A DNA stretch of 64,000 bases from Leadbetterella sp. (GTDB taxonomy: Bacteria; Bacteroidota; Bacteroidia; Cytophagales; Spirosomataceae). Below are positions 6,846 to 62,850 of this stretch, in pieces. The stretch spans positions 28,406 through 92,405 of the forward strand of contig JAHBUH010000020.1 of the NCBI GenBank assembly GCA_019638185.1. The letters run 5' to 3'. The notes under the pieces were generated by a model that worked only from the letters and a program-made list of their open reading frames with translations, was not told the DNA's origin and ran no database searches. The first letter of the stretch is position 1, and the number at the start of each line of letters is the position of its first letter. The translations under genes and the position numbers were made by a program.

Positions 6846-7256
6846 ATGGAAGTTTCAGGAACCATAAAAGTGATTAATCCGGAGCAGCAGGTAAGCCCTT
6901 CCTTTAAGAAGAGGGAGCTGGTAGTAACTACCGATGAGCAGTATCCGCAGCATATTCTGATTGAATTTACACAAGACAGGACCGACCTGCTTAATGCGTA
7001 TAGTATAGGAGATGCCGTAAAGGTATCTATTAACCTGAGAGGCCGGGAGTGGGTAAATCCGCAGGGAGAGACCCGGTATTTTAACAGTATCCAGGGCTGG
7101 AGAATTGAGAAGGCGGGCGCTGAGGCATCGATGGGCAGCGGACCAGCTGCAGGAGCGCCGGCCGCCGGAACACCTTCCGCCAGTATTCCAGCCACCGGAA
7201 TGCCGGCGACCCCTGTTCCGGGATCCCTGGAAGGAGAAGACGATCTGCCGTTTTAA
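6846..7256 (+). CDS. DUF3127 protein (OB-fold-like) with repeat tail
   Basis: Residues 1-95 match DUF3127, a small Bacteroidota family thought to have an OB-fold related to single-strand DNA-binding proteins. Visible markers are FKKRELVVTT, YPQHILIEF and the end ISNLRGREW-like strand followed by YFNSIQGWRIE. The tail (residues 99-126) is five pentapeptide units of the form xPAxG, followed by an acidic EGEDDLPF end like the C-terminal tip of SSB. The tip suggests interaction with replication or repair proteins. The gene is divergent from the unrecognised 5780-6784 gene. Confidence 0.85.
   Translation: MEVSGTIKVINPEQQVSPSFKKRELVVTTDEQYPQHILIEFTQDRTDLLNAYSIGDAVKVSINLRGREWVNPQGETRYFNSIQGWRIEKAGAEASMGSGPAAGAPAAGTPSASIPATGMPATPVPGSLEGEDDLPF
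7140..7223 (+). repeat. 15-nt tandem array in the DUF3127 gene
   Basis: Five and a half degenerate 15-base units with the consensus NNNCCNGCCGCCGGA encode GPAAG, APAAG, TPSAS, IPATG, MPATP and VPG. The array links the folded domain to its acidic tip. Similar 15-nt periodic arrays occur at 10420-10560 and 61432-61614. Confidence 0.75.
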
Positions 7257-7374
7257 TAAGGTACGCGATAGTGGCGAAGCCGGCAGTATCCGGGCCCGCA
7301 GTGGGGTGAATGATCTGTCGGGCAGGGCGGTTTTCGGGGGTTAAAAAAGGCCCGCAGATTTTTTTAAGAAAAAA

Positions 7375-7406
7375 TTTGGTGTGAATGAAATAATGCTCTA
7401 ATTTTG
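7375..7406 (+). promoter_or_regulatory. Promoter of the tRNA operon
   Basis: TTTG at 7375-7378 and TAATTTTG at 7399-7406 match the Bacteroidota -33 and -7 elements, with 20 bases between them. The first tRNA begins 38 bases after the -7 element. Confidence 0.7.
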
Positions 7407-7444
7407 CAACTCCTTAATAAAAGGGACGCGTTCTTTGAAGACAG

Positions 7445-7527
7445 GGGGGTGTACCAGAGTGGCCAAATGGGGCAGACTGTAAATCTGCTGGTGTATGCCT
7501 ACGGTGGTTCGAATCCATCCGCCCCCA
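7445..7527 (+). tRNA. tRNA-Tyr (GTA)
   Basis: The 83-base gene has acceptor arms GGGGGTG and CGCCCCC, an anticodon loop CTGTAAA in a GCAGA/TCTGC stem, a long variable arm as expected for Tyr, and a T arm with loop TTCGAAT. CCA is not encoded. It is first in a three-tRNA run leading into tuf. Confidence 0.95.
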
Positions 7528-7541
7528 CACAGAAAACATAA

Positions 7542-7614
7542 GCGGGAGTAGCTCATTTGGTAGAGCGATAGCCTTCCAAGCTATAGGTGGCGGGTTCGAG
7601 CCCCGTCTCCCGCT
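7542..7614 (+). tRNA. tRNA-Gly (TCC)
   Basis: The 73-base gene has acceptor arms GCGGGAG and CTCCCGC, an anticodon stem ATAGC/GCTAT around CTTCCAA (anticodon TCC), and T loop TTCGAGC. CCA is not encoded. Confidence 0.95.
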
Positions 7615-7628
7615 CAGAATTCCATCAA

Positions 7629-7700
<72 letters not shown>

Positions 7701-7808
7701 CTGAAAGTTTTCAAGACTTTGAGCAGAACTTTCCCGTAAGGGAGAGGTGCAGGGGGCGGCCTACCGCCGGGCGGCGAGCCGCTTCAATCCTGCTCAAAGG
7801 CTCTGAAA
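7701..7808 (+). repeat. Insertion-like segment with duplicated tRNA-Thr tail
   Basis: A 26-base stretch covering the 3' end of tRNA-Thr (7681-7706) recurs exactly at 7783-7808, offset by 102 bases. The DNA between holds three hairpins: CTTTCCC-GTAA-GGGAGAG, GGCGG-CCTA-CCGCC (7755-7768) and GCGG-CGAG-CCGC (7771-7782). Attachment-site-like duplication of a tRNA end is a classic trace of site-specific integration. Here the insert is far too short to encode an integrase. The last two hairpins match the element at 42434-42461. Confidence 0.65.
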
Positions 7809-7886
7809 TTTTTTGGGAATTTGGGGAACTCTGAAAGATTTTGGGGTTCATTTTTTATTGATGCGCGAGCATTTAGTTTTAGTAAA

Positions 7887-7894
7887 TAGTTTTG
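7887..7894 (+). promoter_or_regulatory. Probable -7 element of a tuf promoter
   Basis: TAGTTTTG matches TAnnTTTG exactly and lies 25 bases before the tuf start. A TTG at 7858-7860 is 26 bases upstream, a little further than usual for the -33 box. The tRNA promoter may also read through to tuf. Confidence 0.45.
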
Positions 7895-7918
7895 AACAAA
7901 TAAAATTCATTAAATAAA

Positions 7919-9106
7919 ATGGCAAAAGAAAATTTTGACCGTAGTAAGCCTCACGTGAATATTGGTACTATCGGTCACGTTGACCACGGTAAAACCACTC
8001 TTACTGCTGCAATCTCCTCAGTTCTTGCTGGAAAAGGACTTGCTGCAAAAAGGGATTTCTCGTCAATTGACAATGCTCCTGAAGAAAAAGAGCGTGGTAT
8101 CACTATCAATACTTCGCACGTAGAGTATGAAACTGCTAACCGTCACTATGCTCACGTTGACTGTCCTGGTCACGCTGACTATGTGAAAAACATGGTTACA
8201 GGTGCTGCTCAGATGGACGGCGCGATCATCGTGGTAGCTGCTACTGACGGTCCTATGCCACAAACCCGTGAGCACATCCTTCTTGCCCGTCAGGTAGGTG
8301 TACCTCAGCTGGTTGTATTTATGAACAAAGTGGACCTTGTAGATGATCCCGAGCTTCTTGAGCTGGTGGAAATGGAAATCAGAGAACTGCTTTCATTCTA
8401 CAAATTCGATGGCGATAATATTCCTGTAATTCAGGGTTCTGCTCTGGGTGGTCTTAACGGCGAGCCTCAGTGGGTGGCTAAGATCGAAGAGCTGATGGAT
8501 GCAGTAGATAACTGGATTCCACTTCCTGCAAGAGCTACCGATAAGCCTTTCCTTATGCCAGTAGAAGACGTATTCTCTATCACAGGTAGAGGTACTGTAG
8601 CTACAGGTCGTATCGAAACAGGTGTTATCAACTCCGGAGATCCTGTAGATATCCTGGGTATGGGTGCTGAAGGCCTGAAGTCTACCGTAACCGGTGTGGA
8701 AATGTTCCGTAAGATCCTTGACAGAGGTGAGGCTGGTGATAACGTAGGTCTGCTGCTGAGAGGTATTGATAAAGATCAGATCCGTAGAGGTATGGTAATC
8801 TGTAAGCCAGGTTCTGTTAAGCCTCACACTAAATTCAAAGCTGAGGTTTACGTTCTGTCGAAAGAAGAGGGTGGTCGTCACACACCATTCTTTAACAAAT
8901 ACCGTCCTCAGTTCTACTTCAGAACCACAGACGTTACCGGTGAGATCTTCCTTCCTGAGAACGTGGAGATGGTAATGCCTGGTGATAACATCACTATTGA
9001 AGTACACCTGATTAACGCTATCGCGATGGACAAAGGTCTTCGTTTCGCGATCCGTGAAGGTGGACGTACAGTAGGTGCCGGTCAGGTAACTGAAATCATC
9101 GCATAA
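7919..9106 (+). CDS. tuf: Elongation factor Tu
   Basis: EF-Tu delivers aminoacyl-tRNA to the ribosome. The 395-residue protein shows the GTPase motifs GHVDHGKT (residues 18-25), DCPGH and NKVD, then domains 2 and 3 ([20 protein letters not shown]). Its codon use differs visibly from the neighbours, with many GCT, CGT and GGT codons, as expected for a very highly expressed gene. It follows the tRNA cluster and is closed by a strong terminator. In many Bacteroidota tRNA-Trp, secE and nusG come next; here they do not. Confidence 0.98.
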
Positions 9107-9128
9107 TCACGAGATAGATTATAGAAGG

Positions 9129-9157
9129 AAAGCACCCCGAAAGGGGTGCTTTTTTTG
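9129..9157 (+). terminator. Intrinsic terminator of tuf
   Basis: AGCACCCC-GAAA-GGGGTGCT forms an 8-bp stem with a stable tetraloop and is followed by a run of seven T. It is 24 bases after the tuf stop. Confidence 0.92.
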
Positions 9158-9192
9158 TTTATTTTCGTACTTTAGCCGAAAATCATCGCATT

Positions 9193-10860
9193 ATGAAAAG
9201 AGCTTTTCTTATCCTTTGTATCCTGGTTATAGTGCTGCCGCTCAGGGCGCAGCTGAGTTCCGGTGAAATTGACGCTTTGGTAAACCGGACGCTCCGGACT
9301 TTTGATGTGCCGGGGATTGCGGTTTGCGTGATCAAGGATAAGAAGATCGTTCATGCCCGGGGCTACGGCGTACGGTCACTGAACACGAAACAGCTGGTGG
9401 ATGAGCATACGCTGTTTGGTATTGCTTCTAATTCCAAGGCATTTACGGCCGCGGCACTGGGGATGCTGGTGGAGGAAGGGAAGCTGAAGTGGGATTCCAG
9501 GGTGACGGATTTTATACCGGAGTTTAAGATGTATGATCCCTACGTAACGGCGGAATTTACCATACGCGACCTGCTGACGCATCGCAGCGGGCTGGGCCTG
9601 GGGGCCGGCGACCTGATGTTCTGGCCGGATGAGAATAATTTTACGAAGACCGATATCATTTATAACCTGCGGTACCTGAAGCCGGTGAGCTCGTTCCGGA
9701 GTAAATATGATTACGATAACCTGTTGTATATTGTAGCGGGAGAGGTGGTGGCCCGGGTGAGCGGCAGCAGCTGGGAGACGTTTATCCAGAAGCGGTTCTT
9801 TTACCCGCTGGATATCCGGACCGCGGCGCCGTCTTTTCACCTGCTGAAGGATAAATCCAATGTGATAGACCCGCATTTTTATGTAGACGGTAAGCTGCAG
9901 GTGATTCGCCGCGACTGGAGTGAGAATGCCAACGCGGCCGGGGGTATTTATGCTTCGGTAACCGATATGTCGAAATGGATGCTGGCGCTGCTGAACGGCG
10001 GGAAGTACGGCGATAAGCAGCTTTTTTCAGCCGCTACGCTGCGGGAGCTGTGGAGCCCGCAGACCCTTTTACCGCTGGGTTCACCGGGTCCTTATAATAC
10101 GCAGTTTGCCGCCTACGGCCTGGGCTGGGTGCTGAACGATGTCAAAGGGCATAAGCAGGTGAGCCACACCGGCGGCCTGGCGGGAATAGTGACGCAAACG
10201 GTGATCATCCCTGACCTGGACCTGGCTATCCTGGTGTATACGAATCAACAGTCAGGCGCTGCTTTCAATGCCATTTCCAATACCATTAAAGACGCTTACC
10301 TGGGTGGGAAAGCGAATGAAGACTGGGTGGATTTCTACCACAAGCGGGTAACGGCCGCGAAGAAGGAGGCCGATGAGATTCTGGCCAAAGTGGAGGCGGA
10401 GATCCGGAAGAATACGGATGGGGCAGCAGGGACGCCAGCGACCGGAAGCGGGGCGGGAACATCCCGACCAAGCGTGGCCCGACCGACCGCGACCCAGCCA
10501 AGTGTGGCCCGGCCAAGCGTGGCCCGACCTAATACGGCCCAGCCTGCCGCGGCCTGTCCCTCATTTGAGGTTAAAGGCATATATGCCGACCCCTGGTTTG
10601 GTGAGGTGGAGATCAGCGAGAAAGAAGGGCAGCTGTGGTTTGCGTCGAAACGTTCTTCCCGGCTGACGGGCCCCATGTATTACTATAAAGGCAATACGTA
10701 TATTGTACGCTGGACGGATCGCTCCATGGATGCGGATGCTTACCTGGTGTTCAGCCTGGACACCGAAGGCACGGCTCATGGAATTAAAATAAGCGCCATC
10801 TCTCCGCTGACCGACTTTAGTTTTGATTTCCAGGACCTGGATCTGAACCGAAAGAAATAA
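9193..10860 (+). CDS. Serine hydrolase of the beta-lactamase/PBP4* family
   Basis: The 555-residue protein has a signal peptide (to about LRAQ) and a class C beta-lactamase-type domain. The SxxK motif is SNSK (in ASNSKAFTA), the YxN motif is YDN (in SKYDYDN) and the third motif is HTGG (in QVSHTGGLAG). These are serine peptidases or esterases of the periplasm, usually not true beta-lactamases. A C-terminal DUF3471-like beta domain (about 457-555) follows. Between the two lies a 47-residue Pro/Ala/Val repeat (410-456) not expected for the family. It appears to be a single gene between the tuf terminator and metY. Confidence 0.88.
   Translation: MKRAFLILCILVIVLPLRAQLSSGEIDALVNRTLRTFDVPGIAVCVIKDKKIVHARGYGVRSLNTKQLVDEHTLFGIASNSKAFTAAALGMLVEEGKLKWDSRVTDFIPEFKMYDPYVTAEFTIRDLLTHRSGLGLGAGDLMFWPDENNFTKTDIIYNLRYLKPVSSFRSKYDYDNLLYIVAGEVVARVSGSSWETFIQKRFFYPLDIRTAAPSFHLLKDKSNVIDPHFYVDGKLQVIRRDWSENANAAGGIYASVTDMSKWMLALLNGGKYGDKQLFSAATLRELWSPQTLLPLGSPGPYNTQFAAYGLGWVLNDVKGHKQVSHTGGLAGIVTQTVIIPDLDLAILVYTNQQSGAAFNAISNTIKDAYLGGKANEDWVDFYHKRVTAAKKEADEILAKVEAEIRKNTDGAAGTPATGSGAGTSRPSVARPTATQPSVARPSVARPNTAQPAAACPSFEVKGIYADPWFGEVEISEKEGQLWFASKRSSRLTGPMYYYKGNTYIVRWTDRSMDADAYLVFSLDTEGTAHGIKISAISPLTDFSFDFQDLDLNRKK
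10420..10560 (+). repeat. 15-nt tandem array in the serine hydrolase gene
   Basis: About nine degenerate 15-base units encode pentapeptides such as GAAGT, PATGS, RPSVA, RPTAT, QPSVA and RPNTA. The array sits between the catalytic domain and the C-terminal beta domain. The period is the same as in the DUF3127 and araB arrays. Confidence 0.75.
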
Positions 10861-10880
10861 GAGAATATTAGGAGGAGTGA

Positions 10881-12232
<1,352 letters not shown>

Positions 12233-12236
<4 letters not shown>

Positions 12237-12958
12237 CCGTGAATGAAGCCCAGCATATCGTCTTTGTATTCTTCGTTATCCAGTTCCAGGAATTCTTCCC
12301 AGAAGGCGTTTTCAGGTACGGGTGCCTTGCAGAGAACGGGCTCTTTCTTAACCGGGTGGATAAAGTATACCCGCCGGGCGTGGAGAAAGATAGAGCCGTC
12401 GTTATTGCCTTTGGGGGCGCCGTACTTGACATCGCCTTTGATGGGAGTGCCCATGGAGGCCAGTTGCACCCGGATCTGGTGGGGCCGCCCCGTGATGGGG
12501 TTCACTTCTATCAGGTGGTGTTTATTGACGGTACCCAGGTAGCGGTAGTCGAGGTCGGCCCGCTGCGAGCCGGCTACTTCCTGTTCAAAGGCTTCGGTTT
12601 TATTGGCTATGGGGTCTTTCCGGAGCCAGTGGGTCAGGCGGCCTGATTTTTTTTCCGGTTTCCGCTGGGTCACGGCCCAATAGGTTTTTTGGATCTGTCT
12701 TTTCTTGAAGAGCTCGTTCATCCGGGCCAGGGCTTTGGACGTGCGGGCAAAGATGACCAGCCCGCTTACCGGGCGATCCAGCCGGTGTACGGTACCCAGG
12801 AAGACTTCGCCGGGTTTATCGTATTTTTCTTTGATGTATTCTTTTACAAAGTCCTCCAGGGTCTTGTCGCCGGTGCTGTCGCCGTGCACCAGGATGCCTG
12901 CCGCCTTATTGACGATGATGAGGTGATTGTCTTCGTAGATGACGTGAAATGGTTTCAT
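12233..12958 (-). CDS. RluA-family RNA pseudouridine synthase
   Basis: The 241-residue protein carries the family motif HRLDRPVSGLVIFA with its catalytic Asp, then KTYWAV and the RPHQIRVQLA motif. It converts a uridine in rRNA or tRNA to pseudouridine. It lacks an N-terminal S4 domain, as in RluA/TruC-type members, so the exact target site cannot be named. Its start overlaps the stop of dxr by four bases (ATGA), which indicates translational coupling. Confidence 0.92.
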
Positions 12959-14106
12959 ACTATTTTTTCGAGGGCTTTTTTCCTCGTTTCGTGATCGGTT
13001 TCCATATAGGTTTCGAGATCCGGTTTTTCCACAAAAGGTATTTTTTCCAGGCAGTATTCAATGAGGTCTGACATGCCCGGGAAGCTGACGCGGTCTTTTA
13101 AAAACGCATCTACGGCGATTTCATTGGCTGCATTCAGGATACAGGGCATGTTACCGCCTTTTTGCAGGGAACTGAAGGCCATGCCCAGGTTCCGGAAGGT
13201 ATCCAGGTCGGGCTTTTCAAAGGTCAGGCTGGGATATTGCAGGAAATCAAACCGCGGGAAATTGTTTTTCAGCCTTTGCGGGAAGCCCAGTGCGTACTGG
13301 ATGGGCAGTTTCATGTCAGGCAGGCCCATCTGGGCTTTGATGCTGCCGTCTTCAAACTGCACCAGGGAATGAATGATGCTTTGGGGGTGGATGACCACAT
13401 CGATCTGCGCGGGTTCCAGGTCAAAGAGCCATTTGGCTTCAATGACCTCCAGGCCTTTGTTCATGAGGCTGGCGGAGTCAATGGTGATCTTGGCGCCCAT
13501 TTCCCAGTTCGGGTGCTTCAGTGCCTGGGCTTTACTCACTGTCTTCAGAAATCCGGCATTTTTACCCCTGAACGGGCCTCCTGAGGCCGTCAGGATGATC
13601 TTTTCAATGGGGTTATAGTATTCCCCGGTGAGGCATTGAAAGATGGCTGAGTGCTCGGAATCTACCGGGAGGAGATCTACCTTATGTTTTATGGCCAGCT
13701 CCGTGATGATATCGCCAGCCACCACCAGCGTTTCCTTGTTGGCCAGGGCAATGGTCTTCCCGGCCTTAATGGCATGGATGGTGGGCAGCAGGCCGCTATA
13801 GCCTACCAGGGCGGTCAGCACTATGTTTATGCTTTCGCTTTGCACTACGGAGTTCAGTGCATTGGGGCCGCAATATACTTTTATGTCCAGCGGGTCAAGG
13901 GCCGCATTTACCTTATCATAAAGATTTTCTTCGCCGATCACCACCACGTTGGGCCGGAACCGGGCCGCCTGTTCAATCAGGAGGTCGGCGTTACTTTGGG
14001 CGGTAAGTACTTCTGCCTCAAAGCGGTCAGGATGAGCCGCAATGACCTCCAGAGCCTGGGTGCCTATAGACCCCGTGGAGCCGAGCAGAGCAATTTTTTT
14101 CTTCAT
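12955..14106 (-). CDS. dxr: 1-deoxy-D-xylulose 5-phosphate reductoisomerase
   Basis: This is the second enzyme of the MEP pathway to isoprenoids, making 2-C-methyl-D-erythritol 4-phosphate with NADPH. The N-terminal nucleotide-binding motif is LGSTGSIG. Other markers are ANKETLVVAG, the metal-binding PVDSEHSAIFQCL, LTASGGPF and NWEMGAKITIDSASLMNKG. I chose the ATG at 14106 (MKKKIALLG); an upstream ATG at 14127 would add seven unconserved residues. The product has 383 residues, the normal length. It is coupled to the downstream pseudouridine synthase. Confidence 0.97.
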   Translation of the reverse strand: MKKKIALLGSTGSIGTQALEVIAAHPDRFEAEVLTAQSNADLLIEQAARFRPNVVVIGEENLYDKVNAALDPLDIKVYCGPNALNSVVQSESINIVLTALVGYSGLLPTIHAIKAGKTIALANKETLVVAGDIITELAIKHKVDLLPVDSEHSAIFQCLTGEYYNPIEKIILTASGGPFRGKNAGFLKTVSKAQALKHPNWEMGAKITIDSASLMNKGLEVIEAKWLFDLEPAQIDVVIHPQSIIHSLVQFEDGSIKAQMGLPDMKLPIQYALGFPQRLKNNFPRFDFLQYPSLTFEKPDLDTFRNLGMAFSSLQKGGNMPCILNAANEIAVDAFLKDRVSFPGMSDLIEYCLEKIPFVEKPDLETYMETDHETRKKALEKIV

Positions 14107-14186
14107 CGGAACTGAAACAATCTGCAAAAATACGGGTTTTTGGAGGAAAAACGGCCGATATCCTTCAGAAGTTATCGGGCCAGGCT

Positions 14187-15002
14187 CTATCTCACCGCCT
14201 GCCGTATCTTCACCAGATCCTTCAACAGCCCTTCCAGGTTATCGAGGTGCAGCATGTTAGCGCCGTCTGATCTGGCATTGGCGGGATCGGGGTGGGTTTC
14301 GATGAAGAGCCCGTCGGCACCTACCGCTATGGCGGCTTTGGCGATGGTGGAGATCATGGCGGGGTCTCCGCCGGTTACGCCGGAGGTCTGGTTCGGTTTC
14401 TGAAGGGAGTGGGTGCAGTCCATGATGACGGGTACCCGGAATTTAGCCATTTCTACCAGGTTTCGGTAGTCCACCACCAGGTCAGAGTAACCGAAGCTGT
14501 TGCCGCGATCCGTCAGCAGGGCGGGGGCATCCGGGTTTACGGACCGGATCTTGTCTACGGCGAAGCCCATGGAGGCGCCGGAGAGAAATTGTCCCTTTTT
14601 TATATTCACGGCCCGGCCGGTACGGGCGGCGGCTTCCAGGAGCTCGGTCTGGCGGCAGAGGAAGGCCGGGATCTGCAGCACGTCTACGTAGGGGGCTGCC
14701 AGGGCGGCCTCGTGCGATTCATGGATGTCCGTGACCACCGGAATCCCGAAGGTATCACTTACTTCTTTCAGGATAAGGAGGGCTTTTTCATCGCCAATGC
14801 CCGTAAAGCTGTCGGCTTTGGTGCGGTTAGCTTTGCGATAGCTTCCCTTGAAAATATAGGGGATTTCCAGGGTACGGCAGATCTTATCTATTTTTTCGGC
14901 GATGCTCAGGGCGATATCGCGACCCTCTATAGCACAGGGTCCGGCCATCAGGAAGAAGTTACCGGAAGAGTACTTTTGTAACTTATCAAGGTATAATTGC
15001 AT
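14187..15002 (-). CDS. kdsA: 3-deoxy-8-phosphooctulonate synthase
   Basis: KdsA condenses PEP with arabinose 5-phosphate to make KDO 8-phosphate for lipopolysaccharide. The 271-residue protein shows LMAGPCAIEG, FKGSYRKANRT, VTDIHE, the ligand segment LQIPAFLCRQTE, NIKKGQFL and DCTHSLQKPN. The cysteine in IPAFLCRQ and the DCTH Cys are consistent with either metal class. The frame is open upstream to 15074, but the ATG at 15002 (MQLYLDKLQKY) gives the family-like start. The gene lies 80 bases upstream of dxr on the same strand. Confidence 0.96.
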   Translation of the reverse strand: MQLYLDKLQKYSSGNFFLMAGPCAIEGRDIALSIAEKIDKICRTLEIPYIFKGSYRKANRTKADSFTGIGDEKALLILKEVSDTFGIPVVTDIHESHEAALAAPYVDVLQIPAFLCRQTELLEAAARTGRAVNIKKGQFLSGASMGFAVDKIRSVNPDAPALLTDRGNSFGYSDLVVDYRNLVEMAKFRVPVIMDCTHSLQKPNQTSGVTGGDPAMISTIAKAAIAVGADGLFIETHPDPANARSDGANMLHLDNLEGLLKDLVKIRQAVR

Positions 15003-15134
15003 TATTTCTTCGTGTTTCTGTTTTGAAAATACAAATATGCACTCTATCTTTAAGCTGGAAAAACACTTAATCATTTTGTTGGTTCAAGTTAATTATTTTT
15101 CTTTGTACCGTTTTTAACCAAAATACATTTTCAA

Positions 15135-15371
15135 ATGTCTGACGTTGCATCAAAAGTTAAGAAAATTATCGTTGAGAAATTAGGAGTAGATGAGGCTGAA
15201 GTTACTACAGAAGCATCTTTCACAAACGATTTGGGAGCTGATTCCCTGGACACAGTAGAATTGATTATGGAGTTCGAGAAAGAATTTAATGTTTCTATTC
15301 CTGACGATCAAGCTGAAAATATCCAAACAGTCGGGCAGGCTATTAGTTATTTGGAAGAACATTCGAAATAA
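15135..15371 (+). CDS. acpP: Acyl carrier protein
   Basis: The 78-residue acidic protein carries the phosphopantetheine site DSLD in [16 protein letters not shown]. It carries the growing chain in fatty acid synthesis. It is followed by fabF and rnc, a conserved order in Bacteroidota. Codons are A/T-rich compared with the neighbours, consistent with high expression. Confidence 0.98.
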
Positions 15372-15386
15372 TTATTTCGCTCAGAC

Positions 15387-15444
15387 AAAGTTCAATATTC
15401 TATTGGAAAATGTTTAGGCATTTGAGATTGGGGTATTGAACTTT
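15387..15444 (+). promoter_or_regulatory. Nested hairpin between acpP and fabF
   Basis: AAAGTTCAATA and TATTGAACTTT form a perfect 11-bp outer stem. An inner hairpin, AAATG-TTTAGG-CATTT, sits within it. The outer stem ends in TTTTAATTTTTT just before the fabF start. It looks like a partial terminator or an mRNA-processing structure that would let acpP be made in excess over fabF. Confidence 0.65.
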
Positions 15445-15458
15445 TAATTTTTTAGAAT

Positions 15459-16706: not shown

Positions 16707-16722
16707 GAAGAAGAGGGATTGA

Positions 16723-17442: not shown

Positions 17443-17443
17443 A

Positions 17444-52767: not shown

Positions 52768-52805
52768 TGCCTTCTTTTCATTCACAACAATTAAATCGTA
52801 ATACC

Positions 52806-53153: not shown

Positions 53154-53162
53154 TTCCGGTCT

Positions 53163-53334
53163 TTTTATAAAAGATCAAATATTTTTTTGTACTAATCTAC
53201 TACCATTGCCCTCCTGAACCGTCTTAGGAGAAAAGCAGATCATTATGCACCGATCTCAGGCAAGGGAACTCTTAAAAAAACACCGGGAAGGTACGCTCAC
53301 CGATGACGAAAGGGTGATACTGGAAAGCTGGTAC
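53163..53334 (+). repeat. FecR leader direct repeat, copy B
   Basis: This is the intact-locus copy of the 171-bp repeat at 46173-46343. It includes the FecR leader with TTTTATAAAAGATC and the first codons of the functional FecR gene. Confidence 0.92.
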
Positions 53335-54366: not shown

Positions 54367-54477
54367 AACTTTAAACAACCAGGCCTATGAGATAAAGAAT
54401 ACTTATCATTTAAACCCGAAAGCCGGCGTAAAACCTCCGCCCGGCCGGGTTCCCGCAGGAAAGGCCCCGAAAAAAAA

Positions 54478-54502
54478 CCGTTTCAGATGCGACCTGAAAC
54501 GG
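54478..54502 (+). terminator. Hairpin between FecR and SusC genes
   Basis: CCGTTTCAG-ATGCGAC-CTGAAACGG forms a perfect 9-bp stem. It lies in the 222-base gap before susC and follows the FecR stop by about 110 bases. It may end the FecR transcript or shape the susC leader. No T-run follows. Confidence 0.5.
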
Positions 54503-54588
54503 CTGAAAGTTCGGGTTAGCCTGTCTTTCCGCATCAGCGATGCGGAGTATTGATTGAAAACAAGTAATAACCAAAACCTTACAAAACT

Positions 54589-57500
54589 ATGGAATTTTCT
54601 TTACGCAAGAAAGAGATGCTCCTCCGGGCCTCTCTTAAAATGCTCTTGTTTATGAATCTGACCGCCATTTTTTTAATACTGGGATGCATGCATGTGTCCG
54701 CTGCGGTATTCTCGCAGAAGCTCTATCTTTCTGTGAAGGACGTGCCGCTCACTTCAGTGTTCCGGTCCATTGAGAAGCAAAGCAGCTATACTTTCTTTTA
54801 CGATAACCGCCTGGTCAAAAACACCGAAAACGTGAGTGTGGAATTCCGGGAAGGGACCATCCACCAGCTCATGGACAAGGTCCTGCAAAACCAATCCCTC
54901 ACTTACGAGGTACTGGATAAAATCATTGTCATCCGGAACAAAGAGGCGGTTAAACCCGCGCCGGCTAAAGTTCCTTCCATGGTATATCAGCCCCTGGAGC
55001 CGCCGGCCCCCGATATCCGGAAACTTGAAAGTAATAAACCCGGTACTATCCTCATGGATCGGGTGGTGGCCGTGGCGCCCCTGGAAATCACCGTTCGGGG
55101 CAAGGTAACCGACGAGAAAGGCGAGGGCGTAGCCGGGGTGAGTGTCGTCATTAAAGGCACCACCCGCGGGGTGGTGACGAATGTAGACGGCGACTACACC
55201 CTGCAGGTGCCTGATGAAAAAGCCGTGCTGGTCTTTACCATTGTAGGCTACCAGAGCCAGGAGCACACCATAGGAAACCGCACCCGGCTGGATGCCGTGC
55301 TGAAGCTGGACGAGCAGAAGCTGGAGGAAGTGGTGGTGGTAGGCTACGGTACCCAGAAAAAGGCTAACCTCACCGGGGCAGTAGGTACCGTGGGCTCCGA
55401 AGTGCTGGAAAACCGGCCCGTTCCTAACCTGACCCAGGGGCTGCAGGGCGTACTGCCTAACGTAAACATCCGGATGCTGGACGGTAAACCTAACCAGTCG
55501 CCCAGCATTAACGTGCGGGGTGCCACGTCCATCGGCCAGGGCGGTAGCGCACTCATCCTGATCGATGGTGTGGAAGGAGACCCCTCCATGATCAATCCCG
55601 GCGATGTGGAATCCGTGACCATCCTGAAAGATGCAGCTTCGGCGGCCATCTACGGCGCCCGGGCGGCCTTTGGGGTAGTGCTTATCACTACCAAAAGACC
55701 GGTAAAAGACAACTTCTCCGTTACCTATAACATGAACTACAGCACCAAGAAACCTACCGTGCTGCCTAACTTCCTGACCGACGGCTACCAGTGGGCCAAG
55801 ATGTTTAACGAATCGTTCTATGCCTGGGAAGGCACCTACCCGCAGGCCATAAACAAGACCCTTACCTTTTCCCAGGAATACCTGGCTGAGCTGGAACGGA
55901 GATCCAAAGACCCCAGCCTGCCCAAAACCGAAGTGGGCCCTAACGGCCGATATGTTTACTATGAAAATACCGACTGGTATGACCTGCTCTACAAAGATAA
56001 CCTGAGTGCCACCGAGCATAACCTGACGCTCTCCCGCAGCACGGATAAATCCAGCTTTATGATCACCGGCCGCTATAACAGCCAGGAAGGGCTCTTCCGT
56101 TATAACTCGGACGACTTCAGCGTGTATAACATCCGGGCCAAAGGAAGCATGCAGCTCTTCCGGTGGCTGGAAGTCAGCAATAACTTCGACTTCTCTAACC
56201 GCAAATATCATAACCCCATGAACGTGGGTGAAAGTGGCGGGATCTGGCGGAACATTGCCGATGAAGGACACGTGCTGGCGCCCATGCTGAACCCTGACGG
56301 CACCATCACCTTCTCCGGCGCCTATACCGTGGGCGACTTCTACTACGGCAAAAACGGGATAGACTCCGAACGCTCCATCATCCGGAACATGACGGCCTTT
56401 GAGTCGCGCTTCCTGAACAATACCCTCCGGGTGATCGGTAACGCCACTTTCCAGAATACCTATAACGACGAGACCCGTCGCCGCGTACGGGTGCCTTACA
56501 GCCGTGCGCCGGGGGTGATCGAATACGTGGGTACCACCTATGACGACCTCCGCGAATACCATAACCGCACCAACTACATCGCCACTAACCTGTGGGGAGA
56601 ATACGAACGCACCATCAGCAAGCATTACTTCAAAGTGATGGTGGGCACTAACTACGAGCGGTCGGTATATGACCGCCTGGAAGTGCAGCGGAACGGGCTG
56701 GTTTTCGATGATGCCACCAACATTAACCTGGCCCTGGGGCAGTCCATCACCACCTCCGGTAACTACGAGGCCTGGAATATCCTGGGCGGCTTCTCCCGGA
56801 TCAATTACATCTACGGTGACCGCTACCTCTTTGAATTTAACGGGCGTTATGACGGTTCTTCTAAATTCCCGGATAACGAACGCTTTGCCTTCTTCCCGTC
56901 GGTGTCTGTAGGCTGGCGGATCTCAGGAGAACCTTTCTGGAAAATCTCGCCCAAGACCGTGTCTGACCTCAAAGTGCGCTGGTCTTACGGCTCGCTGGGT
57001 AACGGGAGCATCGGTTCTTACGCCTTCCAGCAAACCTTTGATATTTCACAGTCGGGGCGTATCCTGAACGGCATCAAGCCTCAGCGTACCAGCCGGCCCA
57101 GTGTGCTGCCTGACGGCCTCACCTGGGAAACCGCCACCACCAGTAACGTGGGTCTTGACCTGGCTATGTTTGCTAACCGCCTGAACCTGAACTTTGATGC
57201 CTATAACCGGAAAACCACCGATATGTACACTATCGGGATGACGCTGCCGGCCACCTTCGGTGCCACATCGCCCCGCGGTAACTACGCCGACATGGAAACC
57301 AAAGGCTGGGAGCTGGTAGTAGGCTGGAACAGCCGGGTGAACGTGGGCCGGAAGCCGCTGAACTACCGCCTGGGCTTTAACCTGGCCGACAACAAATCGA
57401 AAATTCTGCGGTATAATAACCCCAACAAGTTCCTGAACGATTACTACGTGGGACAAACCCTCGGCGAAATGTGGGGCTACCAGACAGAAGGCTTCTTTAA

Positions 57501-58230
57501 AAATGCGGAGGATATCAAAAACCACGCCGACCAGAGCCGTTATCTCTCTACCGCCCGGGGTGAGATCCTGCCCGGCGATATCAAGCTGAAAGACCTGAAC
57601 GGAGACGGGGTGATCAGCCAGGGAGATAACACGGTAGATAACCCCGGCGATCGCATCATTATCGGCAACAACCGTGCCCGTTACACCTATGGCATTAACC
57701 TGGGAGCCGACTACGGCGGGTTCTTTGTGTCGGCGTTCTTCCAGGGAGTGGGCAAGCAGAACTGGTACCCCAGTACGGAGTCAAACACCTTCTGGGGGCT
57801 GTATAACCGGCCTTACGGCGACGTGCCCACGTGGCACCTGAAAGAAGGCATCATCTGGACGCCCGAAAACCCCGACGCCTTCTTCCCGCGCTTTGTGACC
57901 CGCCTGGCCAACCGCTCCGGCGCCGTGCTCACCTACCCGCAAACCCAGTATGTGATGAACGTGGCCTACCTGCGGCTTAAAAACGTGCAGGTGGGGTATA
58001 ACCTCCCGTCTGCCTTGCTGAAAAAGACCAAAGCCGTCCGGAGCGCCCGGATCTTCCTCTCGGGCGAGAACCTGCTCACCTGGTCGCCCCTCTTAAAGAT
58101 AGTAGACAATGTGGACGTGGAAAATGCAAACGCGCCTTCCGATCAGCTGTTTACCGACAGCAATGCGGGTGACGGCTATAACTATCCCATGTTAAAAGCC
58201 ATTACAATAGGTCTAACGGTAACATTCTAA
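54589..58230 (+). CDS. SusC/RagA-type TonB-linked outer-membrane transporter
   Basis: The 1213-residue transporter imports oligosaccharides with its SusD partner. After the signal region comes an STN domain (about 45-105, LTSVFRSIEKQSSYTFFYDN) for contact with FecR. A carboxypeptidase-regulatory-like domain follows (about 165-240, GVAGVSVVIKGTTRGVVTNV), then the SusC signature LEEVVVVGYGTQKKANLTGA. The plug has VESVTILKDAASAAIYGARA. A 22-strand barrel fills the rest. It ends in KAITIGLTVTF with a terminal Phe. susD follows after 12 bases. Confidence 0.96.
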   Translation: MEFSLRKKEMLLRASLKMLLFMNLTAIFLILGCMHVSAAVFSQKLYLSVKDVPLTSVFRSIEKQSSYTFFYDNRLVKNTENVSVEFREGTIHQLMDKVLQNQSLTYEVLDKIIVIRNKEAVKPAPAKVPSMVYQPLEPPAPDIRKLESNKPGTILMDRVVAVAPLEITVRGKVTDEKGEGVAGVSVVIKGTTRGVVTNVDGDYTLQVPDEKAVLVFTIVGYQSQEHTIGNRTRLDAVLKLDEQKLEEVVVVGYGTQKKANLTGAVGTVGSEVLENRPVPNLTQGLQGVLPNVNIRMLDGKPNQSPSINVRGATSIGQGGSALILIDGVEGDPSMINPGDVESVTILKDAASAAIYGARAAFGVVLITTKRPVKDNFSVTYNMNYSTKKPTVLPNFLTDGYQWAKMFNESFYAWEGTYPQAINKTLTFSQEYLAELERRSKDPSLPKTEVGPNGRYVYYENTDWYDLLYKDNLSATEHNLTLSRSTDKSSFMITGRYNSQEGLFRYNSDDFSVYNIRAKGSMQLFRWLEVSNNFDFSNRKYHNPMNVGESGGIWRNIADEGHVLAPMLNPDGTITFSGAYTVGDFYYGKNGIDSERSIIRNMTAFESRFLNNTLRVIGNATFQNTYNDETRRRVRVPYSRAPGVIEYVGTTYDDLREYHNRTNYIATNLWGEYERTISKHYFKVMVGTNYERSVYDRLEVQRNGLVFDDATNINLALGQSITTSGNYEAWNILGGFSRINYIYGDRYLFEFNGRYDGSSKFPDNERFAFFPSVSVGWRISGEPFWKISPKTVSDLKVRWSYGSLGNGSIGSYAFQQTFDISQSGRILNGIKPQRTSRPSVLPDGLTWETATTSNVGLDLAMFANRLNLNFDAYNRKTTDMYTIGMTLPATFGATSPRGNYADMETKGWELVVGWNSRVNVGRKPLNYRLGFNLADNKSKILRYNNPNKFLNDYYVGQTLGEMWGYQTEGFFKNAEDIKNHADQSRYLSTARGEILPGDIKLKDLNGDGVISQGDNTVDNPGDRIIIGNNRARYTYGINLGADYGGFFVSAFFQGVGKQNWYPSTESNTFWGLYNRPYGDVPTWHLKEGIIWTPENPDAFFPRFVTRLANRSGAVLTYPQTQYVMNVAYLRLKNVQVGYNLPSALLKKTKAVRSARIFLSGENLLTWSPLLKIVDNVDVENANAPSDQLFTDSNAGDGYNYPMLKAITIGLTVTF

Positions 58231-58242
58231 ACACTGAATCAA

Positions 58243-60045
58243 ATGAAAATACGCATTATATTATCCTTACTGGCCCTCCTGACCTTCACCGGCTGTGACC
58301 TGGAGGAGACGCCACAGCATACCGCCAATAAAAACGTCATCTTCGGAACGGAAAGCGGTCTTCAGCTCTACGCCAACTCGTTTTACGAATGGCTGCCCAG
58401 TGCGAATAACGTGCATTCCGCTGACGCCATTTCCGACTACTCGGCCCGGCGGAATGTACCGGACTTCCTCCGGGGCGATGTGTATAATTCCCGTGCTAAC
58501 GACAACACTTCCGCTTCGGGTTACTCCCTGGTGGCGCTGGGGTCAGACTGGAACTGGGGTTGGGGCTCGCTGAGAAATATCAATTATTTCATTGTGAATA
58601 ATGAGAACCCCGCCATCCCCGAAGCCGTGCGCCGGCATTATACCGGGCTGGCCCGCTTCTTCCGTGCCTGGTTTTACTTTGAAAAAGTGAAGCGTTACGG
58701 TGACGTGCCGTGGATCGATAAGCCCCTGGACGTCTCCGATCCCAAGCTGTTTGAAGGACAGGACTCCCGCACCCTGGTCATGGACAAAGTGCTGGAAGAT
58801 CTGGATTACGCCATTGCCAATATCCAGACCGTATCTGACGCCTCACGCACGCTCATCACCAAAGACGTGGCACTGGCTCTGAAAGCCCGCGTGGCACTCT
58901 TTGAAGGAACCTTCCGGAAATACCATACCGATAAGGGGCTGACCGCTACGGCAAACACCTGGCTGGAGCACGCGCGGTCGGCAGCGAAGACCATTATTGA
59001 CGGTGGCCGCTACCGGCTGAACACCAGCGGCGGTACCGATCTGGCCTATCGTAACCTCTTCATTGCCGATGCCCCTAATGCCACTGAAATTATGTTATCG
59101 GTGGTTTCGAGCGTGAGCCTGGCCGTTCGGCATGATGCCAACTGGTGGTATACCAGCTCCACTACCGGCACCCGTTTCAGTTTCATCCGGCCGTTTATTC
59201 ATACCTATCTGAACCTGGATGGCACGCCTTTTACCGATACACCGGGCTATGCCACCAAGAGCTTTGCGGAAGAAACCAAAAACCGGGATAAAAGGCTTCA
59301 GCAGACCATCCGTACTCCGGGCTACACCCGCCTGAACGGCGCTAACCGCGTAGCGGCGCCACCGGCATTTACCTATACGTACACCGGCTACCAGCCTATT
59401 AAATGGACCACCGATGACGTGGCCGCAGACGGTGGTACCAATAACGTGAACGCGGTGTCACTCTTCCGTTACGCCGAAGTGCTGCTGAACTACGCCGAGG
59501 CCAAAGCCGAGCTGGGGTCCCTCACAAACGAGGACTGGGCCCTGACCATCGGCGCACTGCGCGGCCGGGCCGGCATCACCGGCGGGCTTCAGACCCTGCC
59601 CGCTAAAGTGGACACCTATCTGAAAGCTACTTATTTCCCGGACATCTCTGATCCGGTCATCCTGGAAATAAGACGGGAAAGGGGCATTGAGCTGGCCATG
59701 GAAGGCTTCCGCTTCTATGACGTGGTGCGCTGGAAAAGAGGCGAGCTCTTTACTATGCCCTGGCACGGGATCTACATTGCGGAAGCGAATAAGCTGGTGG
59801 ACCTGAACGGTGACGGCGTAAATGACGTCTTCTTCTATACCACCACGCCACCCTCGCAGGTAAGCGGTGTGACTTATATCAATGTAAATACCGAAACCCA
59901 GCGCCTGACCGGCGGTACTTCAGGGCAGATCACCTGGCTGGATAACATTCCCAAGACCTTCACCACCCGGAACTACCTGTACCCCATCCCGGAAACGCAC
60001 CTGCTGACAAACACGAACCTGAAGCAGAACCCGGGATGGAATTAA
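58243..60045 (+). CDS. SusD/RagB-family outer-membrane lipoprotein
   Basis: The 600-residue protein has a lipoprotein signal (LLALLTFTGC) and the SusD helical (TPR-like) plan, with ARFFRAWFYFEKVKRYGDVP near residue 140 and the C-terminal SusD motifs FRYAEVLLNYAEAKAEL and IRRERGIELAMEGFRFYDVVRW. It forms the lid of the SusC barrel and binds glycans at the surface. A terminator follows the gene. The downstream arabinose genes suggest an arabinose-containing glycan as ligand. Confidence 0.95.
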   Translation: MKIRIILSLLALLTFTGCDLEETPQHTANKNVIFGTESGLQLYANSFYEWLPSANNVHSADAISDYSARRNVPDFLRGDVYNSRANDNTSASGYSLVALGSDWNWGWGSLRNINYFIVNNENPAIPEAVRRHYTGLARFFRAWFYFEKVKRYGDVPWIDKPLDVSDPKLFEGQDSRTLVMDKVLEDLDYAIANIQTVSDASRTLITKDVALALKARVALFEGTFRKYHTDKGLTATANTWLEHARSAAKTIIDGGRYRLNTSGGTDLAYRNLFIADAPNATEIMLSVVSSVSLAVRHDANWWYTSSTTGTRFSFIRPFIHTYLNLDGTPFTDTPGYATKSFAEETKNRDKRLQQTIRTPGYTRLNGANRVAAPPAFTYTYTGYQPIKWTTDDVAADGGTNNVNAVSLFRYAEVLLNYAEAKAELGSLTNEDWALTIGALRGRAGITGGLQTLPAKVDTYLKATYFPDISDPVILEIRRERGIELAMEGFRFYDVVRWKRGELFTMPWHGIYIAEANKLVDLNGDGVNDVFFYTTTPPSQVSGVTYINVNTETQRLTGGTSGQITWLDNIPKTFTTRNYLYPIPETHLLTNTNLKQNPGWN

Positions 60046-60082
60046 ACTAAAATCTTTATTTAAGGTAGATAGTAAACTCACT

Positions 60083-60116
60083 TTAGCTGCTCCGCCTGGG
60101 GCAGCTAATTTTTTTT
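60083..60116 (+). terminator. Intrinsic terminator after susD
   Basis: TTAGCTGC and GCAGCTAA form an 8-bp stem with a 10-base loop, followed by eight T. It closes the fecR-susC-susD unit. Confidence 0.9.
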
Positions 60117-60219
60117 AAACGGCATCAGCCGTACACCGGATCGTGATTTTAATAACAATATTTTGCGGAAATGAAATATTCATCTTAATGTTGCAGGATA
60201 TAGTGATCAACCGAATAAA

Positions 60220-60954
60220 ATGCAGTCCTCTGACCCTTTAACTCTATCCTCTCCCATGAGCCGGTATGCCCATGGGGAAAGGCTTTTAGTGGCCCTGGAC
60301 TGCATCGTTTTCGGTTTTGACGGGGACTTCCTGAAGCTGCTCCTGGTGAAACGGAACTTTGAGCCGGAAAAAGGGAACTGGTCACTCATGGGTGGTTTTG
60401 TGGAGCGGAATGAAGGCCTGGAAGCGGCTGCTAACCGGATCCTTTTTGAGCTTACCGGGCTGAAAGACGTGTATTTTGAGCAATTACAGACCTTTGGTGA
60501 TGTGGACCGGGACCCGGTAGAAAGAACCATTTCCGTAGCCCTCTTTGCCCTGATCAATATCCATGCGCATGACCAGGATGCCGCCCGGGCCCAGAATGCC
60601 TACTGGATTAACATGGACCGCCGGCCGGAACTCATATTTGACCACGGCCGGATGGTGGAGCTGGCCCTGGATAAACTGAGATACAAAGCAGCCATGCACC
60701 CCATCGGCTTTGAACTTCTCCCGGAAAAATTCACCATCCCCCAGCTGCAGAAATTGTACGAGGCCATCTACAATCAGCCCCTGGACCGGAGAAACTTCAG
60801 CCGAAAGATCCTTTCTACCCGGCTGCTGATTGATACCGGGGAAAAGAATGAGAAATCAACCACCAAAAAGGCGGTTTTGTACAAGCTGGACCAGGAGAAA
60901 TATCACCGGCAGTTTAACAGTTTCCATTATTTCATTTCTCCGGGCAAAGGCTAA
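60220..60954 (+). CDS. Nudix-type transcriptional regulator (AraR/NrtR-like)
   Basis: The 244-residue protein has an N-terminal Nudix-fold domain (about 20-150) with a degenerate Nudix box (GGFVERNEGLEAAANRILFE), and a C-terminal winged helix (about 165-240). In Bacteroidota, regulators of this kind (AraR) respond to arabinose and control arabinose genes. Loss of key Glu residues of the box suggests ligand sensing rather than hydrolysis. Its position between a SusCD pair and araB supports the AraR role. Confidence 0.88.
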   Translation: MQSSDPLTLSSPMSRYAHGERLLVALDCIVFGFDGDFLKLLLVKRNFEPEKGNWSLMGGFVERNEGLEAAANRILFELTGLKDVYFEQLQTFGDVDRDPVERTISVALFALINIHAHDQDAARAQNAYWINMDRRPELIFDHGRMVELALDKLRYKAAMHPIGFELLPEKFTIPQLQKLYEAIYNQPLDRRNFSRKILSTRLLIDTGEKNEKSTTKKAVLYKLDQEKYHRQFNSFHYFISPGKG

Positions 60955-61017
60955 ACGGGGAGGCATTTCGTTGTAGGAGAAAAAATATAAATTAATGTGT
61001 TAAAAAGACACCAAAAA

Positions 61018-62850
61018 ATGAATGACCAATACACCTTAGGGATTGACTTCGGCACAGACTCGGTAAGAGCGGTGGTCGTAAACACGGCAAACGGGGCGTT
61101 TGCCGGCACCGCTGTAAGCTATTACCGCCGCTGGAAGGCCGGTGAATTCTGTGACGCCTCCGTTTCCCGCTTCCGCCAGCATCCCCGGGATTACCTGGAA
61201 TCCATAGAAGAAGCGGTCACGGGTGCCCTGGCCGGGCTATCGGCAGAACAGAAACAAAATGTAAAAGGAATCTCCATAGATACTACGGGGTCTACCGTGG
61301 TGGCCGTGGATGAGCAGGGCACACCGCTCTCGCTGCTTCCGGAGTTTGAGAATAACCCGCACGCCATGTTTATCCTCTGGAAAGACCATACCGCTAACCG
61401 CGAGGCCGAAGAAATTAACACCACAGCCCGGGGAGGTGCGGCCCGCGAACGGGCGGCCCACGAACGGGCGGCCCACGATGAACCTGTTCAGGAAATAGCG
61501 GCCTGTGAAATTTCGTCTCCCGAAAGCTTATCTCCCGAAATAGCGGCTCACGAAAGGGCGGCCCGCGAAAGGGTAATCCGCGAAAGAGGAGAGGATGAAG
61601 GAGCCTCTGCCGGGTGGCCGCTGGACTACACAAAATACGTAGGCGGCATCTACTCCTCGGAATGGTTCTGGGCCAAAATCCTGAAAACCTACCGCACCGA
61701 TGAAGCCGTACGGCAGAAAGCCTTCTCCTGGGTGGAGCATTGCGACTGGATGTCTGCCGTGCTCACCGGGAATACCCGGCCCCGGGAAATTAAAAGGTCG
61801 CGCTGTGCCGCCGGCCATAAGGCCATGTGGCACGAAGAGTTTGAAGGCCTGCCGCCCGAAGAATTCCTGGTGGAGGTAGACCCGCTCCTGGCCGGCCTCC
61901 GGGAACGGCTTTTCCGGAATACCTATACTTCAGATGAACCCGTAGGCCACCTTTCGACCGAATGGGCCGCCCGCTTCGGCCTTCCTGAAGACGTGGTGGT
62001 AGGCGTGGGGGCCCTGGACTGCCACATGGGCGCCGTGGGCGCTGAAATCAGCCCCTACACCTTTGTACGGGTCATGGGTACCTCTACCTGCGATATCCTG
62101 ATCGCACCGAACGGGGAAATGAAAGATACTCTGGTCAAAGGGATCTGCGGGCAGGTAGACGGCTCCGTGGTGCCGGGTTACCTGGGCATGGAAGCGGGGC
62201 AGTCGGCCTACGGCGACTACTACGCCTGGTTCCGGCGCCTGCTCACCGGGCCGGTGCGCGCCCTCCTGGGTCCTGCCGCCGCTGATGAGCTGGAGGATAA
62301 AGTGCTGCCTTACCTTTCAGCGGAAGCCTATAAGCTGCCGGTTTCGGAAGAGGATATCGTAGCTACCGACTGGATCAACGGCCGCCGGACCCCGGATGCT
62401 AACCATAATCTCAAAGCCGCATTTACCGGCATGAACCTGAGTACGGATGCCGTGAAGCTCTTCAAGGCCATTGTGGAGGCCACTTCTTTCGGTTCCAAAG
62501 CCATCGTAGACCGGTTTATCGAAGAAGGTGTGCCCATTAAAGAGGTGATCGCCATAGGCGGAGTAGCCCAAAAGTCGCCTTTTGTGATGCAGAACCTCTC
62601 CGATGTGCTGAATATGCCTATAAAAGTAGCCGCTTCCGACCAGGCCTGCGCCCTGGGTGCAGCCATGTTTGCGGCAGTGGTAGCCGGCATCTACCCGGAT
62701 GTGAAAACCGCCCAGGAAAAAATGGGTTCAGGTTTTGACCAGGAATATACCCCGCGGCCCGCCTATGTGGAAATATATCAGGAGCTATACCATAAATATC
62801 AAAAATTGGGAGGCTATATTAATGCTCAAACTTTATCTCAAAAGAAATGA
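61018..62850 (+). CDS. araB: Ribulokinase with a repeat insertion
   Basis: The 610-residue FGGY kinase phosphorylates L-ribulose in arabinose breakdown. Motifs include GIDFGTDSVRAVVV at the start, WKDHTA, YVGGIYSSEWFWAKI, RVMGTSTCDI and the C-terminal IAIGGVAQKSPFVMQ. Residues 139-199 are a 61-residue repeat array inserted between EINTTA and LDYTKYVGG; known ribulokinases are about 550-570 residues. The ATG at 61018 (MNDQYTLGIDFG) fits better than an upstream GTG at 60997. A GTGT-N7-ACAC inverted repeat at 60997-61011 could be an operator. Confidence 0.94.
   Translation: MNDQYTLGIDFGTDSVRAVVVNTANGAFAGTAVSYYRRWKAGEFCDASVSRFRQHPRDYLESIEEAVTGALAGLSAEQKQNVKGISIDTTGSTVVAVDEQGTPLSLLPEFENNPHAMFILWKDHTANREAEEINTTARGGAARERAAHERAAHDEPVQEIAACEISSPESLSPEIAAHERAARERVIRERGEDEGASAGWPLDYTKYVGGIYSSEWFWAKILKTYRTDEAVRQKAFSWVEHCDWMSAVLTGNTRPREIKRSRCAAGHKAMWHEEFEGLPPEEFLVEVDPLLAGLRERLFRNTYTSDEPVGHLSTEWAARFGLPEDVVVGVGALDCHMGAVGAEISPYTFVRVMGTSTCDILIAPNGEMKDTLVKGICGQVDGSVVPGYLGMEAGQSAYGDYYAWFRRLLTGPVRALLGPAAADELEDKVLPYLSAEAYKLPVSEEDIVATDWINGRRTPDANHNLKAAFTGMNLSTDAVKLFKAIVEATSFGSKAIVDRFIEEGVPIKEVIAIGGVAQKSPFVMQNLSDVLNMPIKVAASDQACALGAAMFAAVVAGIYPDVKTAQEKMGSGFDQEYTPRPAYVEIYQELYHKYQKLGGYINAQTLSQKK
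61432..61614 (+). repeat. 15-nt tandem array inside araB
   Basis: About twelve degenerate 15-base units encode pentapeptides of the form ExAAx: ERAAH, ERAAH, DEPVQ, EIAAC, EISSP, ESLSP, EIAAH, ERAAR, ERVIR, ERGED. Neighbouring units such as GCGGCCCACGAACGG are nearly identical at DNA level. The array keeps the frame throughout. Confidence 0.85.

Follow-up and report, generated by a model that had tools for sequence, protein, structure and literature searches.

A probable small dispersed 15-base tandem repeat family, read in several frames, in Leadbetterella and other Cytophagales

Three unrelated genes of Leadbetterella sp. carry tandem arrays with a period of 15 bases, that is, of five codons. 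They lie in a window of 64,000 nt, the whole stretch of DNA analysed here (contig JAHBUH010000020.1, positions 28,406 to 92,405, assembly GCA_019638185.1), which is part of a 4.22 Mb genome in 39 contigs, 95% complete, of the order Cytophagales (hereafter G000). A first-pass annotation of the window had reported arrays in a DUF3127 gene, a serine hydrolase and a ribulokinase, and had proposed that one genome-wide process spreads or expands 15-mers inside coding DNA. All three arrays were found, in frame, at the places claimed, together with a fourth, noncoding one at 7753-7782 that was missing from that list. The features concerned are the following:

6846..7256, + strand: DUF3127 gene (PF11325), with the array upstream of the acidic C-terminal tip
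7140..7229, + strand: DUF3127 tail array, six 15-base units reading GPAAG APAAG TPSAS IPATG MPATP VPGSL
7753..7782, - strand: two GCGG-type units in tandem, noncoding, 11/13 each, inside a partial tRNA-Thr gene duplicate
9193..10860, + strand: serine hydrolase gene, Beta-lactamase domain plus DUF3471
10468..10557, + strand: serine hydrolase linker array, six 15-base units reading PSVAR PTATQ PSVAR PSVAR PNTAQ PAAAC, a private unit
60997..62850, + strand: ribulokinase gene (FGGY_N, FGGY_C)
61435..61614, + strand: ribulokinase insert, 180 bases or twelve 15-base units, some degenerate, a private unit

The periodicity of these arrays differs in strength. Identity at lag 15 reached a maximum of 34/45 in the ribulokinase array and 32/45 in the hydrolase array, and the DUF3127 array was the weakest of the three (29/45). 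At the 29/45 threshold the window contained four lag-15 clusters, two of them in the ribulokinase array, and none of 100 dinucleotide shuffles contained any; such clusters were also denser in the window than in the remainder of the sampled genome (4 clusters against 0.24 expected). The hydrolase array had been placed at 10420-10560, of which 10468-10557 consists of clear units and 10420-10467 is loosely periodic by eye. As for the proposal that the arrays occupy loops or linkers, it agrees with the hydrolase array, which follows the Beta-lactamase domain (32-359) and precedes DUF3471 (462-552), and with the DUF3127 array, located after the domain (residues 2-88). A loop in ribulokinase is unsupported: the FGGY_N match ends at residue 111, where the insert starts, so that the array interrupts the domain, and the AlphaFold model, with pLDDT mostly below 50 in the insert, is poor overall (mean 66.8).

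Comparison with orthologues was based on the rows that could be aligned, namely 29 of the 42 ribulokinase relatives with any match, 7 of 19 hydrolase relatives (the rest being weaker matches) and 11 of 29 DUF3127 relatives. The 60-residue ribulokinase insert was absent from all 29; 28 of these proteins were exactly 60 residues shorter, and the remaining one, also without the array, was one residue longer than the other relatives. The linker region of the hydrolase measured 75 residues compared with 31-35 in the relatives, none of which (0/7) had the array. Judged from these alignments, the ribulokinase and hydrolase arrays are clearly lineage-specific. The expectation that orthologues lack the arrays did not carry over to DUF3127, whose tail region of 56 residues compares with 39-43 in the eight nearest relatives and with 48, 53 and 58 in three more distant ones, an overlapping range; it is best described as a variable tail and makes the weakest case for lineage specificity. 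The DUF3127 protein ends in EGEDDLPF (7230-7253), a similar tip occurs in the 11 aligned relatives, and we take it to resemble the acidic tip of single-stranded-DNA-binding proteins.

We then scanned 1.596 Mb of G000 outside the window for lag-15 clusters at three thresholds, with lags 9, 12, 18, 21 and 24 as references. Results showed 6 clusters at lag 15 against 4, 5, 7, 5 and 2 at the first threshold (mean 4.6, P = 0.31), 7 against 7, 3, 5, 4 and 3 at the second (mean 4.4, P = 0.16), and 6 against 3, 1, 4, 2 and 1 at the third (mean 2.2, P = 0.025). The spacing of all 6-mer pairs showed no peak at 15. By itself, a period of 15 thus barely stands out in this genome, and by the criterion that the first-pass annotation itself set, its broad idea is weak. 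Among over-represented 12-mers, the PVAG core CATTCCGGTGGC occurred 8 times against 0.53 expected, alongside other, mostly unrelated words. Other lags also gave clusters in the sample (9 at lag 36, 8 at lag 45, some falling on 15-base arrays, and 5 at lag 54). Weak lag-15 clusters were seen at L187, L199 (18669), L237, L242 (15142) and L244, and the units of L187 and of the second L199 cluster do not match the family described below. The GC content (fraction of G plus C) was 0.498 in the G000 sample compared with 0.405 in the sample of a near relative, G008.

The lag-15 scan located further arrays in G000. One, reading DPAAGVPAAGDPAAT, lies in AroA (EPSP synthase) just ahead of the conserved DDHRMAM; others are in CoaE (GHRDAGHRDAG), in an MDR-MaoC fusion (PVAGIPVAGTPAAG) and in a ketoacyl synthase (RGAAI), and another is located upstream of a gene that we take to encode methylglyoxal synthase. 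The CoaE insert adds 10 residues relative to seven of eight relatives and the AroA insert 15 relative to eight of nine; all eight and all nine, respectively, lack the array, and in each case the odd one is 3 residues longer than the rest. Measured on rigid alignments, the inserts in CoaE (30 bases), AroA (45) and ribulokinase (180) are exact multiples of 15 bases.

Several of these arrays have DNA in common. The DUF3127 array and the MDR-MaoC array, which is on another contig, share 17 identical bases with opposite strands in use, where the shuffle maximum was 12. The CoaE and MDR-MaoC arrays have 14 identical bases in common, two arrays directly upstream of genes have 17, and the array of a histidine kinase shares 26 with one in a gene without a Pfam family, both found by pattern search, although the two are read as RSPGR and GTPVA. 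These are 4 of the 66 pairs formed by 12 G000 arrays (14-26 identical bases); shuffles of the same pairs reached at most 11-13, and two further pairs share 11 and 12 bases, which is within the shuffle range. A CCGG-type unit is read in G000 as GMPAT in DUF3127, as AGHRD in CoaE and as VAGIP in MDR-MaoC. The repeat is therefore shared as DNA and not as peptide: one unit appears in several frames, on both strands and in unrelated genes.

Of the window arrays, that of DUF3127 belongs with this set, since its unit CCGGAATGCCGGCGA agrees with the CCGG-type consensus at 12/13 positions (another of its units at 11/13) and it contains the 17-base exact stretch in common with MDR-MaoC. Units related to it are present in CoaE, in the histidine kinase and, with less certainty, in AroA. 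The hydrolase unit matched the family consensus at 7/13 positions (shuffle P 0.93-0.95) and the ribulokinase unit at 8/13 (shuffle P about 0.7), and neither array had a common stretch of at least 11 bases with the 11 other arrays. Within G000, the ribulokinase unit was found with up to three mismatches in its own array only, and a looser dimer pattern of it gave 21 matches, fewer than the 37 of its control. The proposal of one process behind all three window arrays finds no support in two of them, which show no sequence link to the dispersed family.

To what extent the unit occurs elsewhere was examined in a sample of 390 genomes of the order, covering 129 genera. A tandem dimer of GCGGNNTGCCGCCCA, the GCGG-type unit of the distant genome G052, was found with up to two mismatches in 23 of the 390 genomes, in 12 of the 129 genera and in five families (51 matches in G052 and 1-5 in each other positive genome), and the reversed pattern in none of the 390. 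When the spacing between two perfect GCGGNNTGCCGCCCA copies was left free from 0 to 18, 65 pairs were found in 13 genomes, 44 of them in G052. Among 31 listed pairs the period was 15 in 23, 27 in four, 16 in two, 22 in one and 30 in one. The spacer, unspecified in the pattern, was CCA in 22 of the 23 period-15 pairs and TCA in the other; these 23 pairs fall in 17 arrays, and pairs within one array or in orthologous arrays are not independent. A single spacer at unrelated sites is not what chance or independent local birth would be expected to produce. With up to three mismatches, the dimer GGNNTGCCGGCCACCGGNNTGCCGGC was found in 12 of 59 genomes, at 72 places (36 in G052, 8 in G000 and 1-7 in ten others), and in none of nine genus-mates of G000. 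In other genomes CCGG-like units occur in what we read, from the sequence, as IleRS, a kinase-like protein, a DacB-like protein and an FtsK linker (G034), and at one intergenic-looking site. G052 also contains a composite repeat, for example at C36:14981-15034, in which a unit core is linked to the next by a CACCGTTGCGGGAA-like stretch with a period of 27, a multiple of three.

The frame in which the unit is read differs from host to host. As xAAQR it lies inside penicillin amidase, Gfo/Idh/MocA and DinB domains and at the edge of GH95; as GxPPS, inside a short-chain dehydrogenase domain; as GGxPL, inside hydantoinase and cytidylyltransferase domains; as WAAxR, inside an nSTAND1 domain; and as GRHSA or GRQSA, inside aldose epimerase and TsaD domains. 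In total, 10 of 30 scanned proteins (29 from other genomes and one from G000) had the array in or at the edge of a Pfam domain, 8 had no Pfam family, and 12 had the array beside a domain, several of them near an uncertain start; the sixth frame (ACxRP type) was not found inside a domain in any of the 30. Whichever its two variable bases, the GCGGNNTGCCGCCCA-type unit is free of stop codons in all six frames, a property that we would not call rare by itself for a GC-rich 15-mer.

These readings bear on whether selection on the protein could account for the arrays, with pentapeptides rich in Pro, Ala and Gly being useful as flexible linkers and xPAxG repeats evolving again and again. The DUF3127 tail, the hydrolase linker and, in our reading, the FtsK linker of G034 are natural linkers, and a PVAG-like reading is recurrent. 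However, the same DNA is read elsewhere as AGHRD, RSPGR, AAQRN, RWAAD and GRHSA, the array of ten proteins falls within a recognised domain or on its border, and noncoding-looking copies exist too. We regard this explanation as improbable; it is contradicted for the family, and could apply to the hydrolase linker alone.

Arrays occur also between genes, in noncoding-looking DNA. One array in G350 has a period of 16 and lies at an intergenic-looking site, though it is spanned by small open reading frames of 109 and 120 residues. The suggestion that this class of repeats never breaks the reading frame was accordingly too strong; given the noncoding-looking arrays and the period-16 array, the keeping of the frame looks like selection after the event. 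In the window, the stretch 7702-7807 is a partial duplicate of the 3' end of tRNA-Thr, downstream of tRNA-Thr, and contains two 15-base units. G008 has no such duplicate or array between tRNA-Thr and the next gene, which is presumably that of EF-Tu. Within genes, copy number changes by whole units between orthologues of different genomes: the nSTAND1 array measures 126 or 111 bases (G158, G305), a difference of 15, and the hydantoinase array 129 bases in G305 compared with 84 in both G215 and G291, a difference of 45. In this respect such arrays resemble minisatellites, with their variable number of tandem repeats.

We assign a probability of roughly 0.6 to the reading that these arrays represent a small dispersed 15-base tandem repeat family with two close variants, GCGGNNTGCCGCCCA and CCGGNNTGCCGGCCA, whose coding copies are frame-filtered by selection. 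The number of copies in a family array ranges from two to about six, and the arrays occupy different sites, genic as well as intergenic, from one genome to another. According to this reading, a templated or recombinational event would bring the unit to a new site, perhaps with a preference for sites where the sequence in place is already similar to it, and slippage would then lengthen or shorten the array by whole units. Five codons per unit and the absence of stops in any frame would let it pass within genes, and selection, which would retain the copies that fall in tolerant places, would be the sole reason for frame keeping. Of the window arrays, those of DUF3127 and of the noncoding site at 7753 probably belong to the family; for hydrolase and ribulokinase, private local tandem expansions kept by the same filter are the likelier origin. 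The genome-wide spreading process proposed at the outset is thus partly supported: in its favour are two clearly lineage-specific arrays, the further arrays in G000, several with shared units, and the whole-unit differences between orthologues of other genomes; against it are the weak showing of period 15 as such and the missing sequence link for two of the window arrays.

A series of results weighs against a dispersed family. Outside the window the excess of period 15 was not significant at two of the three thresholds (P = 0.31 and 0.16; 0.025 at the third). The CCGG-type dimer, in the other orientation and with up to two mismatches, is rare, being limited to 4 of the 390 genomes (four places in G000, two in G350 and one each in G025 and G129, with one match of the reversed control, in G292), and in a 1.66 Mb sample exact units of the CCGG type occurred three times and of the GCGG type not at all. 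The reversed control of GGNNTGCCGGCCACCGGNNTGCCGGC matched at 6 places in four genomes, none of them G000 or G052, and the 8 places matched by GGNNTGCCGGCCACCGGNNTGCCGGC in G000 represent 6 loci, including an ABC-transporter-like gene (C16) in which there is no array. Reversed patterns control for composition and not for codon usage. Several arrays were located by pattern search, so that their resemblance to the consensus cannot count as independent evidence, and the AroA units match it weakly (10/13, P 0.05-0.09). In CoaE, seven of the eight array-free relatives carry residues like one unit (R-D-A-G) at the array site, and the array is therefore equally explained by local duplication of a resident near-match. 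Finally, no enzyme or mobile gene able to move the unit was found.

Several of these points would agree with independent births, that is, local tandem duplications of resident GC-rich sequence that are kept only if in frame and resemble each other through shared codon habits (Ala-Ala, Pro-Ala-Gly) at a medium to high GC content. The private units of hydrolase and ribulokinase, the CoaE unit overlapping residues also present in relatives, the lack of a significant period-15 excess at two of three thresholds and the narrow range of the CCGG dimer are all of this kind, and G008, sampled over 400 kb with a GC content of 0.405, has one weak cluster. Against such births stand one 15-base unit with a nearly constant CCA spacer in unrelated genes of several genera, in five frames and in noncoding-looking DNA, the exact stretches of 26 and 17 bases that arrays in unrelated genes have in common, and the reversed-pattern control at 0/390. 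We consider independent births unlikely as an explanation of the family, at odds of about one in four.

Two further explanations were considered. In the first, the units would be REP-like palindromes moved by RAYT, a Y1 transposase. In most units inverted pairs of four bases can be traced, and the distance between one array of G034 (C1:935693) and a Y1_Tnp gene with internal stops (935989-936333) is about 270 bases. Nevertheless, the pairing of 17 tested units was never above that of their own shuffles (lowest P 0.086, for stem length), and Y1_Tnp (PF01797) has no match in G000, 95% complete, while being present in all nine genus-mates searched. The unit, moreover, is a 15-base head-to-tail repeat without the GTAG or CGTC tag that PMC3733652 describes for REPs. 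We regard this origin as very improbable. A hairpin or palindrome reading, attractive by eye, was dropped, since 0 of the 17 units beat shuffles. In the second, the arrays would be assembly errors in repeats, a suspicion fed by the draft state of G000 and by that of G052, which has about 720 contigs and some of its arrays at contig ends. However, numerous independent genomes carry such arrays, and of these genomes at least G034 is in a single contig; the frames are open, and orthologues differ by whole units. We find this explanation hardly credible.

Minisatellites are typically locus-specific. The hydrolase and ribulokinase arrays fit well in the class of in-frame minisatellites, whereas the unit of the dispersed family recurs across many loci and several genera. 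Variable segments that lie in frame within genes are described in PMC2884548. The closest known systems are the small dispersed repeats (SDR) of cyanobacteria (Elhai et al. 2008) and, among protein-coding repeats and MITEs inside genes, the Rickettsia palindromic elements (RPE). PMC2884548 describes SDR as very small, perhaps mobile, and tandem with varying copy number; they resemble the present units in this, dispersal being shown here and movement conjectural, but measure, by that description, about 20 bases compared with 15 and belong to another phylum. RPE and protein-coding repeats are presented in PMC2229807 and PMC3733652 as small, non-autonomous and in frame inside conserved genes, and also found between genes. 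The in-frame inserts absent from orthologues (29/29 for ribulokinase, 9/9 for AroA, 8/8 for CoaE) are like them, but RPE are given there as 105-146 bases with long stem-loops, whereas here the tandem unit has 15 bases, five frames and pairing not above chance. REP and REPIN, according to PMC3733652, are short and dispersed, sometimes inside genes, yet they are tagged, mostly intergenic palindromes of 20-40 bases; here there is no pairing above chance, and no Y1 transposase in G000. PARCEL repeats, according to PMC2996958, are intragenic and tandem, with dyad symmetry and a patchy distribution, and are thought to be exchanged between genomes; their motif is of 25 residues, in open reading frames without assigned functions, whereas ours is of five residues, with several readings, in known enzymes. 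Among the best literature matches listed, as far as their accessible text goes and with subscription journals mostly outside the scope, there was no published description of a 15-base tandem unit in five frames and several genera.

A stronger form of the dispersed-family reading, which we put forward only tentatively, as somewhat less than an even chance, takes the unit for an element that is mobile or copied in a sequence-specific way, spreading among genera of the order and giving core enzymes pentapeptide arrays in several frames. Should it have a route of spread of its own, the unit would be an agent of very small size, lengthening core enzymes by five codons at each step and leaving the frame intact whichever way it is read. 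If mobile, it would also be, to our knowledge, the smallest protein-coding mobile element. Its arrays would then amount to a natural experiment on the sites of proteins that tolerate insertion and to a source of new linkers, and their scatter over genera, together with the whole-unit differences, makes movement versus local slippage testable. As a separate observation, in another Bacteroidota genome the end of a ribulokinase gene and the DNA behind it carry a strong array with a 15-base unit that is unrelated, of the TGGTTTCTGGTTGGA type (L073, 4525-4693).

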